From contig NZ_CABPSK010000005.1 in NCBI RefSeq assembly GCF_902459645.1, positions 1 through 64,000 of the forward strand: DNA of 64,000 nucleotides, written 5' to 3'. The stretch comes from Pandoraea pneumonica (GTDB lineage: Bacteria; Pseudomonadota; Gammaproteobacteria; Burkholderiales; Burkholderiaceae). Every line of letters begins with the position of its first letter. Within the stretch, counting starts at the first letter, position 1. The position numbers and the translations under genes are program-made. A model generated the notes under the pieces. That model worked only from the letters and a program-made list of their open reading frames with translations. It made no database searches and was not told the origin of the DNA. Below are positions 34,720 to 48,015 of this stretch, in pieces.

Positions 34720-35002
34720 GCGATGTCTATGCCTGAACGAGGAATGCGGGGGACGCCGTGAGGACGATACTGCTCACTAGCAAGCGCTCACCCACTGGAA
34801 AGTTAGTGCTCACCCATCTCGGATTCCTACATACCGTTGCCACTGACGAGAAACGTGAAGCTTCCGTTGATTCATCGAATCGTCACACTTCCCCCGCAAT
34901 AATCACGGCGCACGAGGAATTTACAAACTAATTCGGCGGCCGATCTACTGCGTCAACCTACGCGTGGCTCCGGGCGCCGGTGCGACCCGGGGAAATGACG
35001 CA

Positions 35003-37450
35003 ATGACCATCCGTCATCGAATAACGCTATTGGTGATCCTGACGTTTGTCGCGCTCTCGATCATCGGTGGCTACGCCGTCTACCAGACGCGCGCCAGCGC
35101 TCAGAAAGTGCGGCAGGTTACCGAAGGCGTAGTACCTAGCGCCCTCGCTTCAGCCGACCTAGTCTCGCAAGTCAAGGCGGTGCAGATCGCCACGATGACG
35201 CTGGTCTACGCGCCCGAAGAGACCGTTGTCGAACAGTCGCTCGAAACGCTCAAGAAGCTGCGCGCCGATCTCGATCAATCGCTCGCCCGTCAAGCCGACG
35301 GTGCCGCCAGCGACGCCCAGAAGGGGCTGGTGACGCAGGCGCGCGAGAGCGTCGACAACTACTTCAACGCGATTAGCGATACCGCTAAGCTTAAACAGGC
35401 AGGCAAGGCCGAGATGGCGCAGGCGTTCCTGTTTGCGAACGTGGCACAGTATCGCGACGAACTCGAAGGCGTGGTCAACACGCTGCGAGTGGAAAAGAAC
35501 CGCGAGAAAGACTCGGCGATCGCCACCCTGAACGCCACGCTCTCGACCACGACGACGGCCATTGCCATCGTGACGGGCCTCGCGATCGTGCTGCTCACCG
35601 CCATCGGCGCGCTGCTCTATCGTCAGATCACCCGCCCGCTCTCGCGCATGCAGGGCATGATGAGCGAGATCGCCAACAGCCAAGACTTCACGCGCCGCGT
35701 ACCGGTGGGCCGGATGGACGAAATCGGTCAGGCGACCGTGGCGTTCAACGGCATGATCGAGAAGATTCAGGAACGCTCGGCGCAACTCAAGCAGAAGACG
35801 GCCGATATTCAGGCTATGTTGCAGAACATGCAGCAGGGCATCTTGACGGTCGTCGACGGCTCGAAGGTGCACGGCGAATACTCCGCATATCTCGAAGCGA
35901 TCTTCGAGACGCAGGACATCGCAGGCCGTGGCGTGATGGATCTGGTGTTTGGCGACAGCGATCTCGGCTCTGACGCGCTCTCGCAAGTCGAAGCCGCCGT
36001 CGACGCCTGCATCGGGCAAGACGCCATCAACTTCGCCTTCAACGAACACTTGCTCGTGGGCGAGATCGGCAAGCGCATGCCGGACGGTCGCGTGAAGCAA
36101 CTCGACCTCACGTGGTCGGCCATCACGGACGAGAGCGACACCATCCTGCGCCTGATGCTGTGCGTGCGAGACGTGACGGAACTGCGCGAACTGGCGGCTG
36201 AAGCCACCGAGCAGAAGCAGCGCCTCGAGATGATCGGCGAGATTCTGGCGGTGAGTCAGGAGAAGTTCCACCACTTCATCGAGAGCTCGACCGGCTTTAT
36301 TCGCGAGAACGAGCGCATCATTCGCAAGCACTCGCAGGCCGACAGCGCAGCCATTGCGGAACTGTTCCGCAACATGCACACGATCAAGGGCAATGCGCGC
36401 ACGTACAACCTGCAATACCTGACCAACGTGGTGCACGAGACCGAGCAGCAATACCACGAGCTGCGTCAGCCGGATGCGGGCCTGCCGTGGAATCAGGACC
36501 ACCTGATGCGCGAACTCGAACGCGTGCGCAACGCGGTCGACACCTACGCGCATATCAACGAGATGAGTCTGGGGCGCAAGGGCCCGGGCCGCAGCGCGGA
36601 CGAGCAATCGATGGTCGTCGACCGTGGGCACATCCGCGCGAGCCTGCGCATGCTCGAAGCGGCCGATCCGAACGATTTGCATCAACTGGTTGCCATGCGC
36701 GACGCCGTGCACCAGACGCTGCGGCTGTTGGGCACCGAAGGCGTGGGCGAGGCGTTGGGCGGCGTGCTCGACTCGTTGCCGTCGCTCGCGGGCGAACTCG
36801 GTAAGCCGGCCCCGGCGGTGCGCATCGACGACAACGGCTATCGCCTGCGCTCGCCGGCCGTGCGAATTCTGCGCGACGTGTTCATGCACTTGCTGCGCAA
36901 TTCGATGGATCACGGGCTTGAGAGCGCTGACGAGCGTCGCGCCAAGGGCAAGCCGGCGGCAGGCACCATCGATATCGAAGTCGGCCTCGATCACAACATG
37001 CTGCAAGTGACGCTGACCGACGATGGCCGCGGCCTGGCGCTGCATCGTATTCGCGGCATTGCAGTGCAACGCGGCTGGATCACGTCCGAGACGTATGTGA
37101 CGGACGAGCAGATCGCGCAGTTCATCTTCCGCCCGGGCTTCTCCACTGCGTCGCAGGTGACGGAAGTGTCGGGCCGGGGTGTGGGCATGGATGCCGTGCA
37201 AGACTTCGTGCGCCGCGAACATGGCCGTATCGAGCTGCGTTTCACCGACGAGCGCAAGGGGGCGGAATTCCGCCAGTTCCAGACGGTGGTGTGCCTGCCC
37301 GACAACTTGGTCGTCGACGGTTTCGATATGAACAGCGTGGCAGCCGATGCGGTCGACCTGCCGAGCGCAACGCTCGAATCGATCCAGTCCGTCGAGGGAC
37401 GTGCGGCGGGCGACGATCTGACGCATCAGTCGAAGACCGACAAGGTCTGA
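35003..37450 (+). CDS. Transmembrane CheA-like hybrid sensor kinase without a CheW-binding domain
   Basis: An 815-residue membrane kinase. The domains in order are: TM1 (7-27); a periplasmic helical region like the four-helix-bundle sensors (28-183); TM2 (184-206); HAMP (207-262); a PAS-like region (about 265-395); and an HPt/P1 domain with phospho-His459 in HTIKGNAR. A CheA-type ATPase follows, with N-box HLLRNSMDHGLE (629-640), G1 DDGRGL (673-678) and G2 PGFSTASQVTEVSGRGVGMD (711-730). The chain ends in 75 polar residues, where CheA would have its P5 domain. It thus merges receptor and kinase in one chain. The ATG at 35003 has GGGGAAA 7 bases upstream; I rejected a GTG at 34964. First gene of a five-gene chemosensory-like unit. 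Confidence 0.9.
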   Translation: MTIRHRITLLVILTFVALSIIGGYAVYQTRASAQKVRQVTEGVVPSALASADLVSQVKAVQIATMTLVYAPEETVVEQSLETLKKLRADLDQSLARQADGAASDAQKGLVTQARESVDNYFNAISDTAKLKQAGKAEMAQAFLFANVAQYRDELEGVVNTLRVEKNREKDSAIATLNATLSTTTTAIAIVTGLAIVLLTAIGALLYRQITRPLSRMQGMMSEIANSQDFTRRVPVGRMDEIGQATVAFNGMIEKIQERSAQLKQKTADIQAMLQNMQQGILTVVDGSKVHGEYSAYLEAIFETQDIAGRGVMDLVFGDSDLGSDALSQVEAAVDACIGQDAINFAFNEHLLVGEIGKRMPDGRVKQLDLTWSAITDESDTILRLMLCVRDVTELRELAAEATEQKQRLEMIGEILAVSQEKFHHFIESSTGFIRENERIIRKHSQADSAAIAELFRNMHTIKGNARTYNLQYLTNVVHETEQQYHELRQPDAGLPWNQDHLMRELERVRNAVDTYAHINEMSLGRKGPGRSADEQSMVVDRGHIRASLRMLEAADPNDLHQLVAMRDAVHQTLRLLGTEGVGEALGGVLDSLPSLAGELGKPAPAVRIDDNGYRLRSPAVRILRDVFMHLLRNSMDHGLESADERRAKGKPAAGTIDIEVGLDHNMLQVTLTDDGRGLALHRIRGIAVQRGWITSETYVTDEQIAQFIFRPGFSTASQVTEVSGRGVGMDAVQDFVRREHGRIELRFTDERKGAEFRQFQTVVCLPDNLVVDGFDMNSVAADAVDLPSATLESIQSVEGRAAGDDLTHQSKTDKV

Positions 37451-37525
37451 CCCACGTACGAATGCACGGCGGCGCAGACCTGACCGGTCTGCGGCCGCCG
37501 CGCCGCTTTCGGAGGCAACAAGAGC

Positions 37526-38254
37526 ATGACAGCAGTGCAAGGGTTCGTGGCGGGGGCACTCGCTAGCGTCGTGATCGTTGGCGTGATCGCATTCATCGCG
37601 CATCGCTGGCGCATGGCGCAGGCCGTCGCTCACTGGCGTGCGCTGGAAAAGACGCACGAAGAAGCGCTGGAACAGGCGCTGGAGCGTGAGCGCATTTCGC
37701 AAGCCGAGAACGAGGCGCTCGCCGTCGCACACGACGACGCGCTGGCGGCGCTACAGGCGCAGCTAGTGCAGGCCGAGTCGGATCTGCAAGCGGCGCGCAA
37801 GTCCGAAGCCGAAGTGCTCGAAGCAAAAACGCAATGGCAGACGGAAGCCCAGCGCATCGCGGGCGAAGCTGCGCGCTTGCGCGGGCTGGCGGCGACCTTC
37901 GAGCGCTGGCACGAGCAGATGATTTCGCTCATGACCCAGAACCAGGACATGCACGCGAAGAATCACGAGCTGGCATCGATTGTGCGGCACGTGCTGATCG
38001 TCTCGCTCAACGCGTCGATCGAAGCTGCACGTGCAGGCACCGCCGGGCGCGGCTTCGGCATCGTCGCGAGCGAAGTGCGTGCGCTGGCGACGCGTTCGGA
38101 AGAACTCTCGAAGAGTTATCGCGACAGCCTGCATCGCAACGACGTGACGACGACGGCGACGTTTCAGGACATTCAGGCGGGCGGCAAGATGATTGCGGCG
38201 TCGCTCTCGAGCGTCGAGTCGTTGGCGCATCAGTTGCATTCCCGTCTTCACTAA
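37526..38254 (+). CDS. Membrane-anchored fragment of a chemoreceptor signalling domain
   Basis: A 242-residue protein with one N-terminal helix (about residues 5-25) and a long Ala/Glu/Gln-rich coiled coil (about 35-120). A short version of the methyl-accepting hairpin tip follows (residues 160-193: VSLNASIEAARAGTAGRGFG and ASEVRALATRS). The tip is recognisable by the AARAG...GRGF...EVR..A.RS pattern. The canonical QTNLLALNA segment is changed to HVLIVSLNA. HAMP, periplasmic sensor and full-length methylation helices are absent, so it cannot be a normal receptor. It may scaffold or modulate the neighbouring kinase. AGGCAACAAG lies upstream as a weak ribosome site. Confidence 0.8.
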   Translation: MTAVQGFVAGALASVVIVGVIAFIAHRWRMAQAVAHWRALEKTHEEALEQALERERISQAENEALAVAHDDALAALQAQLVQAESDLQAARKSEAEVLEAKTQWQTEAQRIAGEAARLRGLAATFERWHEQMISLMTQNQDMHAKNHELASIVRHVLIVSLNASIEAARAGTAGRGFGIVASEVRALATRSEELSKSYRDSLHRNDVTTTATFQDIQAGGKMIAASLSSVESLAHQLHSRLH

Positions 38255-38266
38255 GCAGGTGGCGTT

Positions 38267-38833
38267 GTGATCAGCAATCACGCACGCGAGAGTTTCGAGC
38301 GCATTCTCCACAAGGCAGCCCGCACGCGGCTCGCGCGTTCTGTCGATGCGCCTTGCGAGATCGTGCCGCTGGGCGCGCGTCAGGCCGAACCGGCAAACGA
38401 CGCGAGTATCGATCTTGCCAAGCGTCACGCGAACGTGGTGGTGCTCACGATTTCGTCGATCGGTTTTCGCATGTTGCTGATTCTTCACTTCGACGAAGAC
38501 GATGCGACGTCGGCGTACTTCGTGGGGGACGCGCAGGACAAGTCGTTTCGGGAGGCGTTTCTCGAAATCAGCAATCTGTGCTGCGGTGCGATCAATCAGG
38601 AACTGCTGAACTACTTTCCCGATCTGGGCATGTCTACGCCCTATGTGCTGAGCGCGCGTTGTGTCCCGCATCTCATGCAACTCAAGCCGAATCACCTCGC
38701 GTCGTGGGAAATCACGCTCGACGGTTCGGTGCGCCTGGCCGCCACGCTGTGCGTTTGCGCACATGCGCCGCTCGACTTCGTTGCCGAAGTGAGCGAGACG
38801 CAGGACAGCGGCGGCGAGCTGGAACTGTTTTGA
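38267..38833 (+). CDS. CheX-like CheY phosphatase, copy 1
   Basis: A 188-residue protein without membrane segments. The stretch FLEISNLCCGAINQELLNYF contains the ExxN dyad of CheC/CheX/FliY phosphatases, and the conserved Pro follows at the expected spacing (N-x21-P). In those families the Glu and Asn act on the CheY phosphoryl group. The alpha/beta surroundings (VVVLTISSIGFRMLLILHF and SWEITLDGSVRLAATLCVC) fit the CheX fold. The C-terminus GGELELF is acidic and ends in Phe, like the next gene's protein. The start is 12 bases after the previous stop. Confidence 0.75.
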   Translation: MISNHARESFERILHKAARTRLARSVDAPCEIVPLGARQAEPANDASIDLAKRHANVVVLTISSIGFRMLLILHFDEDDATSAYFVGDAQDKSFREAFLEISNLCCGAINQELLNYFPDLGMSTPYVLSARCVPHLMQLKPNHLASWEITLDGSVRLAATLCVCAHAPLDFVAEVSETQDSGGELELF

Positions 38834-38882
38834 ATTCGCCCTACTTGAATCCGCCCTACGCCTCGGCAAGGAACCCAATACG

Positions 38883-39524
38883 ATGAACCGAAGCACCCCC
38901 CGCGAGTCGGTGAGCCATTTCCTGATCCTCGACGATAACGTCGAACATGAATATCCCGAAGCGCTCGTGCGCGGGATGATCGACATCACCGATGGCGCCA
39001 TTCGTGGCCTGTTCGGCGACGTGTCCGTGACGTGCGAGTCGCCCAGCGTCGTGCGCGATCGCATCATCTTCGGCGAAGTCTTTAGCCTGATTCCGCTGGA
39101 GAGCGCCTGGTGCCGCGGCTACATGATGATGCAGGCCGAGCAGGTGCCGTTCATGCAACTGCTCGAACACACGGGCCGTTGCGAAGGGCAGGCCGGGTTT
39201 CGCGAACTTAACGGCATGCTAGGCGAGATGACCAATCTCATCTGGGGCGCGTTCAAGAGCCGCTTCATGGGCGACCCGGCGGCCGTCGATCACACGCAGG
39301 TGCAGGTGCCGCTGCTGATCAACCACAAGCAGAAGTACATCTCGTTCGGCACCGATAACCCGCAACTGTGCTTCGTGTATCAACTGACCGATCCGGTGAG
39401 CGGGCAGATCGTCACGCTGCATCAGCACTTCGTCTTCAGCCTGAACTGGTCGCCCGAAGCGTTCCGCGAAGCGGCGCAAATGGTGGCTGAGCCGGTCGAG
39501 ACGGGCGCGCTGGAAATGTTCTGA
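38883..39524 (+). CDS. CheX-like CheY phosphatase, copy 2
   Basis: A 213-residue cytoplasmic protein. LGEMTNLIWGAFKSRF (about residues 112-127) holds one ExxN phosphatase dyad, with a Pro about 25 residues later in QVQVPLL. It aligns only loosely with the preceding CheX-like protein, so the pair are diverged. It too ends in an acidic, Phe-terminated tail, ETGALEMF. Preceded by AAGGAA about 11 bases before the ATG and followed by the CheY gene. Confidence 0.75.
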   Translation: MNRSTPRESVSHFLILDDNVEHEYPEALVRGMIDITDGAIRGLFGDVSVTCESPSVVRDRIIFGEVFSLIPLESAWCRGYMMMQAEQVPFMQLLEHTGRCEGQAGFRELNGMLGEMTNLIWGAFKSRFMGDPAAVDHTQVQVPLLINHKQKYISFGTDNPQLCFVYQLTDPVSGQIVTLHQHFVFSLNWSPEAFREAAQMVAEPVETGALEMF

Positions 39525-39575
39525 GCCACGGGCTCACCCTTTATCAAACATTCACCCATACACAAGGACACCATC

Positions 39576-39941
39576 ATGTCGAAGATTCTCGTGGTCGACG
39601 ATTCGAGCACCGTGCGCGACGAAGTCGCCGGTTTTCTGCGCAAAAACGGCCTTGATGTCGACACGGCCGTCGACGGCAAAGACGGTCTGGCGAAGATCAA
39701 GGCCAGCCCCGGCGTGAAGCTCGTCATTAGCGACGTGAACATGCCCAACATGGACGGCCTGACGATGGTCGAGAAGATTCGTGGTGAGCTCGCCAACAAC
39801 TCGGTCAACGTGGTGATGCTCACCACCGAGAGCAGCCCGGCGATGAAAGAACGCGGCAAGGCCGCCGGTGTGCGCGGCTGGATCGTCAAGCCGTTCAAGG
39901 GCGACGCCGTGCTCGAGACGTTCCGCAAGCTCGCCAGCTAA
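39576..39941 (+). CDS. CheY-like single-domain response regulator
   Basis: A 121-residue receiver with no output domain. The acidic pocket is Asp8/Asp9, the phospho-acceptor is Asp53 (ISDVNMP), and Thr83 and Lys105 (VKPF) complete the active site. AAGGA lies about 8 bases before the ATG. As the last gene of the unit it is the expected acceptor of phosphate from the CheA-like kinase and the substrate of the two CheX-like proteins. Its downstream target is not evident; no flagellar gene is near. Confidence 0.93.
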   Translation: MSKILVVDDSSTVRDEVAGFLRKNGLDVDTAVDGKDGLAKIKASPGVKLVISDVNMPNMDGLTMVEKIRGELANNSVNVVMLTTESSPAMKERGKAAGVRGWIVKPFKGDAVLETFRKLAS

Positions 39942-46021: not shown

Positions 46022-46146
46022 ACCCGACGGCGCTCGCAGCCGTGTGCGCGCATCGCGCACCGGCTTGCCGAGGCCACCTAGGAAGTGCCCGTCGCGATAG
46101 GTGCCTGAGAGCGCCGCGCGGCAGGCCGGAAGCAGGAGACAGTGTT

Positions 46147-48015
46147 TTGAACCAAGGCAACATCCCGGCCGGCGCCGCTGCGCACCGCTATCGTCACGTC
46201 GCTATCGGCAACCCCGGTGTGGAGTTTCGACGCGAGGGCGAGTTCTGGTATTTGCGCTCGCGTGAAGCGCTCGGTGACTTTCCCGAGCGTCTGACCGATC
46301 GACTGGTGAGCGGCGCGGCAAAGCACCCGGAGCGCTGGCTCATCGCTCGCCGCGGTGCCGACGGAGAGTGGATTGGCATTAGCTACGCCGAGATGCTGGC
46401 GCGTGCGCGGTCCATCGGTCAGGCGCTGCTCGACCGTGGGCTGTCGCAATCGCGCCCAATTGCGATTCTCTCCGGCAACGATCTGGAGCACTTCCAACTG
46501 GCCTTAGGGGCGATGTTCGCCGGGGTGCCGTTCGCACCGATTTCGCCCGCGTATTCCATCGTATCGACTGACTACGGCAAGTTGCGCCACACGCTCGGTT
46601 TGCTGCAACCCGGGCTCGTCTACGCCTCGGATAGCAAGCTTTATGGTCGCGCGATGGATGCCGTACTAGGCGATGACGTGATGCGCGTCACTGCCGATGG
46701 CGCGAATGACACGCTGGCGTTCGATGCGTTGCTCGACACCGCGCCGCGCGATATCGACGCGGCGCATGCAAAGGTCGATGGAAAAACTATCGCCAAGATC
46801 CTTTTCACCTCCGGTTCGACACGTCAGCCGAAGGCGGTGCCGACCACGCAACGTATGCTGTGCAGCAACCAGCAGATGCTGCTGCAAACGTTCCCGACAT
46901 TCGGTGAGGCACCGCCCGTGCTCATCGACTGGCTGCCGTGGAATCACACCTATGGCGGCAGCCACAACGTGGGCATTGCGCTGTACAACGGCGGCACGTT
47001 GTATATCGACGATGGCAAACCCGTGGCGGGCAAGTTTGACGAGACGCTGCGCAATCTGCGCGAGATTTCGCCGACGGTCTATTTCAACGTGCCGAAGGGC
47101 TGGGAAGACCTGGCGATCGCGCTGGAGAAGGATGCTGAACTGCGCGAGCGTTTCTTCGCCAAGGTGAATTTGTATTTCTTCGGCGGTGCCGGGCTGTCGC
47201 AAGCCGCTTGGGACCGGCTGGAACGCGTGACCGAGACGCACTGCGGCGAGCGCATTCGCATTATGTCTGGGCTTGGGATGACCGAAACGTCGCCGAGTTG
47301 CATGTTCACCACCGGCCCGATCATGCGCGCGGGGTACATCGGATTGCCCGCGCCCGGTTGCGAAGTAAAGCTCGCGCCCGTGGGCGGCAAGCTCGAAGTG
47401 CGCTTTCGCGGGCCGAATGTGATGGGCGGCTATTGGCGTCACGAGGCGAGCGATCCGGTTTTCGACGAGGAAGGCTATTACTGCACCGGCGACGCCGCGA
47501 CATTCGTGGATATCGCGCAGCCGGAGATCGGTCTGCAATTCGACGGCCGCATTACTGAAGACTTCAAGTTGAGCTCCGGCACGTTCGTTAGTGTCGGACC
47601 GCTGCGGGCACGCGTCATTTCGGAAGGCGCACCGTACGTGCAAGACGCGGTGGTAACCGGGATCAATCGCGACGACATCGGCTTGCTGGTGTTTCCGCGC
47701 GTGGACGATTGCCGCAGGCTCAGCGGGCTGGCATCCGATGCACCGCTGGCCGACGTCTTGGCGTCTGCTCCGGTACGCGATTTCTTCGCGGGCTTGTTGC
47801 AAAAACTGAACCTGCAAGCGGGCGGCAGCGCGACGTACGTGGCCCGGCTGTTGCTGCTCGACATTCCGCCGTCGCTCGATCGGGGCGAAGTCACCGACAA
47901 AGGATCGATCAATCAGCGCGCGGTGCAAGATCATCGCGCGGCTAGCGTCGACGCGCTGCACGCCGCGCAACCCGGTGACGATACGCGCGCCATTCTGGCC
48001 CCCGCGAGACGCTGA
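46147..48015 (+). CDS. fcs: Feruloyl-CoA synthetase
   Basis: A 622-residue adenylate-forming ligase that activates ferulate or p-coumarate with ATP and CoA. The P-loop is ILFTSGSTRQPKA (218-230). Other acyl-adenylate motifs are SGLGMTETSP and GYYCTGDA. The start appears to be TTG at 46147: AGGAGA ends 8 bases upstream, and there is no in-frame ATG near the beginning of the conserved region. The usual GRxKD hinge is replaced by GRITEDFKLSSGTFV, as in the Fcs subfamily. The next gene starts one base after its stop. Confidence 0.9.
   Translation: MNQGNIPAGAAAHRYRHVAIGNPGVEFRREGEFWYLRSREALGDFPERLTDRLVSGAAKHPERWLIARRGADGEWIGISYAEMLARARSIGQALLDRGLSQSRPIAILSGNDLEHFQLALGAMFAGVPFAPISPAYSIVSTDYGKLRHTLGLLQPGLVYASDSKLYGRAMDAVLGDDVMRVTADGANDTLAFDALLDTAPRDIDAAHAKVDGKTIAKILFTSGSTRQPKAVPTTQRMLCSNQQMLLQTFPTFGEAPPVLIDWLPWNHTYGGSHNVGIALYNGGTLYIDDGKPVAGKFDETLRNLREISPTVYFNVPKGWEDLAIALEKDAELRERFFAKVNLYFFGGAGLSQAAWDRLERVTETHCGERIRIMSGLGMTETSPSCMFTTGPIMRAGYIGLPAPGCEVKLAPVGGKLEVRFRGPNVMGGYWRHEASDPVFDEEGYYCTGDAATFVDIAQPEIGLQFDGRITEDFKLSSGTFVSVGPLRARVISEGAPYVQDAVVTGINRDDIGLLVFPRVDDCRRLSGLASDAPLADVLASAPVRDFFAGLLQKLNLQAGGSATYVARLLLLDIPPSLDRGEVTDKGSINQRAVQDHRAASVDALHAAQPGDDTRAILAPARR

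Follow-up and report, generated by a model that had tools for sequence, protein, structure and literature searches.

A window of 64,000 nucleotides from Pandoraea pneumonica (assembly GCF_902459645.1, positions 1 to 64,000 of NZ_CABPSK010000005.1), part of a contig that we call C5 in a genome of 5.85 Mb, carries five tandem genes for a membrane CheA-like kinase (K), a receptor-tip protein (M), two CheX-like proteins (X1 and X2) and a CheY-like receiver (Y). On balance, we think that these genes probably form a self-contained, chemosensory-like phosphorelay that does without CheW. An original prediction, made from the sequence alone, had proposed the set as a reduced chemosensory cassette, and open reading frames (ORFs) for all five proteins were indeed found in the interval it gave, 35003-39941.

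A five-gene unit with a conserved gene order

The five ORFs lie on the forward strand in the order K-M-X1-X2-Y, with gaps of 75, 12, 49 and 51 bp between them. A search with X2 recovered matches in 23 of 41 relatives, counting the own genome, in 78 of the 249 genomes sampled from the family, distributed over 6 of 25 genera, and in 9 of 397 genomes of the phylum, four of these being weak matches to generic CheX. The best 80 of 326 relatives were kept from a scan of named genomes and, along with 15 further regions, made up the 95 loci that we examined. Note that loci were picked by their likeness to X2, and the counts that follow describe X2 carriers rather than bacteria at large. Some genes of the unit were present at 92 of the 95 loci, the other three being generic CheX loci with none (L051-L053). 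All five genes were present at 88, and gene order, which the original prediction had singled out for checking, was K-M-X1-X2-Y in every one of the 88. Removing six loci with identical X2 and Y left 86 non-redundant loci, 83 of them complete; the incomplete ones are two whose contig begins beside M (L107 and L109) and a decayed locus (L047/L077). In this last case, from Caballeronia sordidicola (L077, 8340-9687), X2 is intact, X1 lies in pieces and Y is truncated, and neither K nor M was found in the stretch examined.

Carriers belong to Pandoraea, Burkholderia, Paraburkholderia, Caballeronia, Trinickia, Noviherbaspirillum, Sterolibacterium and metagenome-assembled genomes (MAGs) of Rhodocyclaceae; Paraburkholderia xenovorans LB400 (L102) is one of them. 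Within Pandoraea, P. iniqua and Pandoraea sp. PE-S2T-3 each have an X2 that shares 98% identity with the one in the window. At greater distance, a profile search with X1 across 370 genomes of the class found seven carriers, including five new ones. Two of the distant loci (L143, L147) have the same order, one reads M-X1-X2-Y (L146), one consists of a cut K together with M and X1 (L145), and one is re-ordered yet contiguous, K-X2-Y-M-X1 (L144).

To see where the unit ends we compared 478 ORFs, called with a rough GC-position heuristic, from the flanks of 42 chosen loci. The cluster present in the widest range of carriers, a LysR-type regulator by reading, occurred at 7 of the 42 loci in four genus groups, and the largest, of enoyl-CoA hydratases, at 12 (5 Pandoraea, 7 Burkholderia-type). 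The Pandoraea hydratases are only 30-33% identical to those of Burkholderia, and we took their presence as chance rather than as membership of the unit. No other family recurs widely in these flanks, and we take the five genes to be the entire conserved unit.

The genome does contain parts of other chemotaxis systems: it has eight CheW matches, on contigs C2 and C7 at three regions, and two CheB matches, both on C2. Neither protein was matched on C5, which bears out the claim that the unit lacks CheW and CheB; CheR had no separate search. The fixed order, the want of a widely recurrent extra gene at the 42 loci and the lack of any match to CheW or CheB on C5 all accord with the proposal that the unit is self-contained.

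A membrane kinase with a CheA-type core but no P5

In K, Pfam recognises 4HB_MCP_1, HAMP (residues 204-257), Hpt (E 1.4e-6) and HATPase_c (E 3e-10), with a PAS region (residues 286-391) below its threshold. Both sequence and fold searches group the ATPase domain with CheA P4, and Foldseek aligns K with CheA P3P4 (4xiv) across 262 columns. The predicted phospho-acceptor, His459, lies within an HxxKG motif present in 83 of 83 orthologues. As for the ATPase motifs, the G2 box GRGVGM is likewise present in all 83, the N-box in 82 and G1 in 81.

A CheW/P5 domain has no Pfam match in K or in any of 28 diverse orthologues, all 28 of which are matched by both Hpt and HATPase_c. In addition, the predicted local distance difference test (pLDDT) of the K model is below 50 from residue 777 to the terminus at 815, which leaves no room for P5. 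On this evidence from K itself, from its orthologues and from the model, the missing P5 of the original prediction is real. K would thus appear to be CheA-like in action and yet fall outside the published definition of CheA, with its core of P1, P3, P4 and P5, because P5/CheW is counted as core there. The portion of a published survey that we draw on gives a CheW domain in 100% of 13,673 CheA sequences (PMC10782961).

In some distant carriers the sensor part of K differs (PAS_3 in L147, HAMP alone in L143, none recognised in L045) while Hpt and HATPase_c are retained in all three, which fits expectation if K is the input of the unit. In L145, K is cut off ahead of both domains.

Two unlike CheX proteins with a common C-terminal peptide

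X2 matches the Pfam CheX profile with E 4e-10. For X1 the corresponding match (E 0.047) is below the cut-off and no more than suggestive by itself, and a PDB sequence search found no match. A profile comparison between X1 and X2 gave just 32% probability, with an alignment ending in a tail that both proteins have in common, so that the identity of X1 is settled by fold. Its AlphaFold2 model (mean pLDDT 89) has CheX of Thermotoga maritima as top Foldseek match in the PDB (E 2e-6); the first three matches have TM-scores by query of 0.51-0.59, and FliM middle domains rank lower. The two proteins had been called CheX-like from the start, a description upheld for X2 by Pfam and for X1 by the fold match. 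The ExxN motif is present in 85 of 85 X1 and, as GExTN, in 86 of 86 X2.

The common tail has the form G-[EAV]-[LMI]-[ED]-[LMFW]-F, typically GELELF, and ends all 85 X1 and all 86 X2. It is also found in the distant loci, in 5 of 5 X1 (once as GDLELF) and 4 of 4 X2. Over the final six columns, entropy ranges from 0 to 0.45 bits for X1 and from 0 to 1.0 for X2, compared with 1.25-2.67 over the ten preceding positions of X1 and 1.55-2.72 over those of X2, save two columns at 0.16 and 0.76. The pattern is absent from the other proteins of the unit (0 of 83 K, 0 of 85 M and 0 of 86 Y) and from four generic CheX proteins (L036-L039). At the DNA level, the genome has a single match to the pattern G-E-L-[ED]-x-F-stop, which excludes the GALEMF of X2, and this match closes the X1 gene. 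In the AlphaFold2 model of X1 the tail is disordered; it resembles a putative docking peptide. A likeness to clamp-binding motifs (QL[SD]LF) was set aside: the Gln is missing, and nothing else spoke for it.

Elsewhere X2 carries a degenerate receiver, which has been lost in most Pandoraea. In 69 of the 86 loci X2 has at least 300 residues and includes a receiver-like part at the N-terminus, in which the phosphate place is variously S, A, D or G; two of nine X2 match Pfam OKR_DC_1_N. The 17 shorter X2 all come from Pandoraea, a genus in which P. terrae (L079/L040) keeps the receiver-like part. At the N-terminus of the X2 in the window, SHFLILDDN corresponds to the first strand of the lost receiver, fused to the CheX part.

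A shortened receptor and a lone receiver

The MCPsignal match of M (Pfam, E 1e-14) covers profile positions 45-134 of 172, and the receptor-tip motif is present in 85 of 85 M. Hydropathy over 19 residues reaches its maximum, 2.7, from residue 7, and exceeds 1.6 in 77 of 85 orthologues. Following the tip, from the place of E391 in Tsr, 70-74 residues remain in the 85 loci, and five distant loci have 69-78. The corresponding stretch is 141-244 residues long in 11 ordinary methyl-accepting chemotaxis proteins (MCPs) of this Pandoraea genome, whose F373 and E391 places hold Phe and Glu, respectively. Compared with these, M is shortened, its C-terminal helix after the tip falling below full length. 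The own genome has 16 MCPsignal matches altogether: the 11 with an ordinary tip, three without a tip by pattern, M itself, and a 380-residue frame with Arg at the F373 place and Asp at the E391 place.

Two receptor-like proteins of the same genome may be mentioned alongside M. One, of 470 residues, is encoded about 47 kb downstream of the unit on the same contig (L169, 1183-2595; C5:86170); it has no tip by pattern, but by eye there is one, with Arg at the place of Tsr F373. In the other, of 368 residues (L170, 1492-2598; C2:50363), a bare receptor tip comes first and is followed by a long region.

Y is a receiver (Response_reg, E 3e-24 in Pfam) with its active-site Asp, Thr and Lys present and no output domain. 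SDV[NHS]MP is found in 81 of 86 Y, and VKP[FV] and LT[TS] each in 85 of 86, the miss being the decayed L047.

How the unit might work, and what else it might be

What might these five proteins do together? In the phosphorelay that we favour, a signal would be detected by the N-terminal part of K (sensor, HAMP and PAS region); K would then autophosphorylate His459 of its Hpt domain by means of the CheA-type ATPase domain, and hand the phosphoryl group on to Asp53 of Y, from which X1 and X2, their CheX ExxN motifs intact, would strip it again. CheZ docks on its partner by its tail; by analogy, the common tail may dock X1 and X2 onto one partner, most likely Y, and two different phosphatases would therefore converge on the same output. 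M, as a membrane-anchored receptor-tip hairpin, might contact K or the phosphatases and tune them directly, without CheW or P5. The proposal that a receptor fragment regulates the kinase instead of CheW arrays is plausible: the short helix after the tip fits it, whereas the tip is array-like and its Arg at the F373 place is also seen in a T. maritima receptor. Going further, one might see here a distinct chemosensory class, in which a tip fragment controls a membrane CheA-like kinase devoid of P5 and GELELF ties two CheX proteins to one output, a suggestion that we regard as rather doubtful.

A number of observations weigh against this scheme. Y as the partner of the docking-peptide-like tail would be a guess; the N-box pattern is missed in one of the 83 K and G1 in two; and among the 28 K orthologues no Pfam match to the P3 dimerisation domain is listed. 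The genome has 36 receiver matches to Y, Y included, so that the kinase and the target of Y could lie elsewhere; the next two after Y, at 41% and 37% identity, are in the che region of C2. Further points concern the tip of M, which conserves GRGF, retains in all 85 cases the array-receptor residues at the N381, E385 and R388 places and has Ile at the I377 place in 82 of 85. F373 and E391 of Tsr are array-type contact residues of the receptor tip. At the F373 place M has R, K, A, Q or N in the 85 loci and Q or K in the five distant ones (Phe in 0 of 90), and at the E391 place Glu in three and Asp in one of the 85. Neither substitution is used here as a sign that M has left CheW arrays. All five distant M retain Glu at the E391 place, which makes its loss recent, and a T. 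maritima receptor in the PDB (3ur1, 4jpb), reported in complexes with parts of CheA and CheW, shares with M an Arg in the position of F373. Given the array-tip residues that are kept, the Glu of distant M and this Arg, the tip of M could still bind CheW. M might then be an accessory receptor in ordinary CheW arrays, with the unit cross-talking to the main che system; that CheW is encoded at three other regions of the genome and in the genomes of 11 of 11 distant carriers, and that by eye L169 has the same Arg, would suit such a role. We nonetheless consider it unlikely, in view of the short helix after the tip, of the rarity of Glu or Asp at the E391 place among the 85 non-redundant loci, and of the position of cheW, which among the matches listed does not adjoin the unit in any of the seven distant carriers that could be placed (nearest about 14 kb away, in G839). 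A single erasing activity would not call for a pair of divergent CheX proteins, and together with the receiver-like part of most X2, variable as its phosphate place is, this could mean that X1 and X2 are binding partners, as scaffold or output, rather than phosphatases, with the X2 receiver once acting as their switch. The ExxN motif, kept without exception in both proteins, makes this improbable. The idea that the unit is a chance assembly of decayed chemotaxis genes can draw on the decayed locus of C. sordidicola and the cut K of L145, but is refuted by the conservation of order and catalytic residues over long range.

A different question is what the phosphorelay acts upon. The original prediction had suggested that the output may not be motility, and this is not supported: fliM is present in 78 of 78 carriers of the family sample versus 117 of 171 non-carriers (Fisher p 8e-11, treating two 249-genome family samples as identical), and in 10 of 11 distant carriers, the eleventh being a MAG of unstated completeness. 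One may therefore ask whether the unit is a side arm of flagellar chemotaxis, in which phosphorylated Y either targets the flagellar switch or is a competitor of CheY. This would be compatible with the phosphorelay described above and would name its output as an array-independent input to motility; besides fliM, it has in its favour that the nearest paralogue of Y in the genome is the CheY-like gene beside cheB on C2. However, kinship and genome size both confound the association with fliM (of the 54 fliM-less genomes, the 20 listed are all of 2.8 Mb or less), and we do not treat it as proof of flagellar output. Moreover, three Pandoraea genomes have fliM but not the unit (G023, G105, G242), and no flagellar gene family is among the recurrent neighbours listed. 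A sigma-28 promoter 5' of K is not clearly enriched, 14 of 89 upstream stretches having at most three mismatches versus 10% of shuffles, and was discarded. We hold such a side arm to be a real possibility, albeit one that falls short of being probable.

Relation to known systems

Canonical CheA pathways (F, ACF, Tfp) likewise combine Hpt and a CheA-type P4 with a receptor tip, CheY and CheX-type phosphatases. K differs from their kinases in being membrane-bound, with its own sensor and no P5, and CheW and CheB are unmatched on the contig. With membrane sensor histidine kinases that have HAMP and PAS domains K shares its 4HB-HAMP-PAS input, but its phospho-accepting His is in an Hpt domain and its ATPase is of the CheA type. 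X1 and X2 resemble known CheX phosphatases (T. maritima 1squ/1xko, Borrelia 3hzh) through the fold of X1, the Pfam match of X2 and ExxN; they differ from them by the common C-terminal peptide and, in most relatives examined, by the fusion of X2 to a degenerate receiver.

The nearest named gene neighbourhood, to our knowledge, is PA2571-PA2573. In this orphan chemotaxis sensor of Pseudomonas aeruginosa, genes for a sensor kinase, a chemoreceptor and a response regulator are adjacent, as in the unit, a likeness by description only; the regulator consists of a receiver and YN-GYP, and the excerpt on which we rely mentions no CheX (PMC3411652). According to the same excerpt, binding was found between receptor and regulator and not between kinase and regulator (PMC3411652).

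Among the matches listed in the open-licence literature, compared by title and start of abstract, we found no description of the five-gene unit, a weak negative. The unit may be an undescribed, simplified relative of bacterial chemosensing. Compared with the original prediction, the tail common to both CheX proteins, the remnant of the lost X2 receiver, the shortening of M and the conservation of the unit appear to be new. By keeping receptor tip, CheA core, CheY and CheX and dropping P5 and CheW, the unit offers a natural test of whether receptor tips can govern a CheA-type kinase in the absence of CheW, and the C-terminal peptide makes it simple to test how a pair of dissimilar phosphatases might be recruited to a single target.

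Features and genomic surroundings

Table 1. Positions of the five genes and their principal features in the window.
Feature	Position	Strand	Basis
K, membrane CheA-like kinase, 815 aa (alternative GTG start at 34964)	35003..37450	+	Pfam, sequence and fold searches
Hpt/P1 of K, residues 440-510; predicted phospho-acceptor His459, codon 36377-36379	36320..36532	+	Pfam Hpt 1.4e-6, HxxKG, model helix 448-467
CheA-type HATPase/P4 of K, residues 622-757; G2 box GRGVGM at residues 724-729	36866..37273	+	Pfam, sequence and fold searches
M, N-terminal transmembrane helix, coiled coil and receptor tip, 242 aa	37526..38254	+	MCPsignal 1e-14, hydropathy
Tip segment of M, corresponding to residues 373-398 of Tsr; F373 place Arg, E391 place Thr	37985..38062	+	Alignment
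X1, CheX fold, 188 aa; ExxN E100/N103 at 38564-38575; tail GELELF	38267..38833	+	AlphaFold2/Foldseek fold
C-terminal peptide GELELF of X1	38813..38830	+	Motif conservation
X2, CheX, 213 aa; ExxN E115/N118 at 39225-39236; tail GALEMF	38883..39524	+	Pfam CheX
Receiver remnant of X2, SHFLILDDN	38913..38939	+	Comparison with relatives
C-terminal peptide GALEMF of X2	39504..39521	+	Motif conservation
Y, single-domain CheY-like receiver, 121 aa; Asp53 (39732-39734), Thr83, Lys105	39576..39941	+	Pfam Response_reg

Around the unit, a scan for sigma-70 promoters found none, the count of terminators was near chance level, Rfam gave no match and two plasmid records carry no annotation at the unit. An ARAGORN tRNA-Gly(gcc) at 46659-46740 lies inside a long ORF (46042-48015) and is possibly false. 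Upstream of the unit there is a LysR regulator (Pfam). On the 3' side, the segment 40125-46021 encodes a MarR regulator and a major facilitator superfamily transporter by Pfam, together with ORFs that by reading resemble a porin, an enoyl-CoA hydratase and an aldehyde dehydrogenase, a combination that recalls aromatic-acid (ferulate-type) catabolism. At the distant locus L143 (26-7932) the unit is adjoined by two MCP genes, each followed by a gene for an EAL-domain protein, a hint of cyclic di-GMP signalling.

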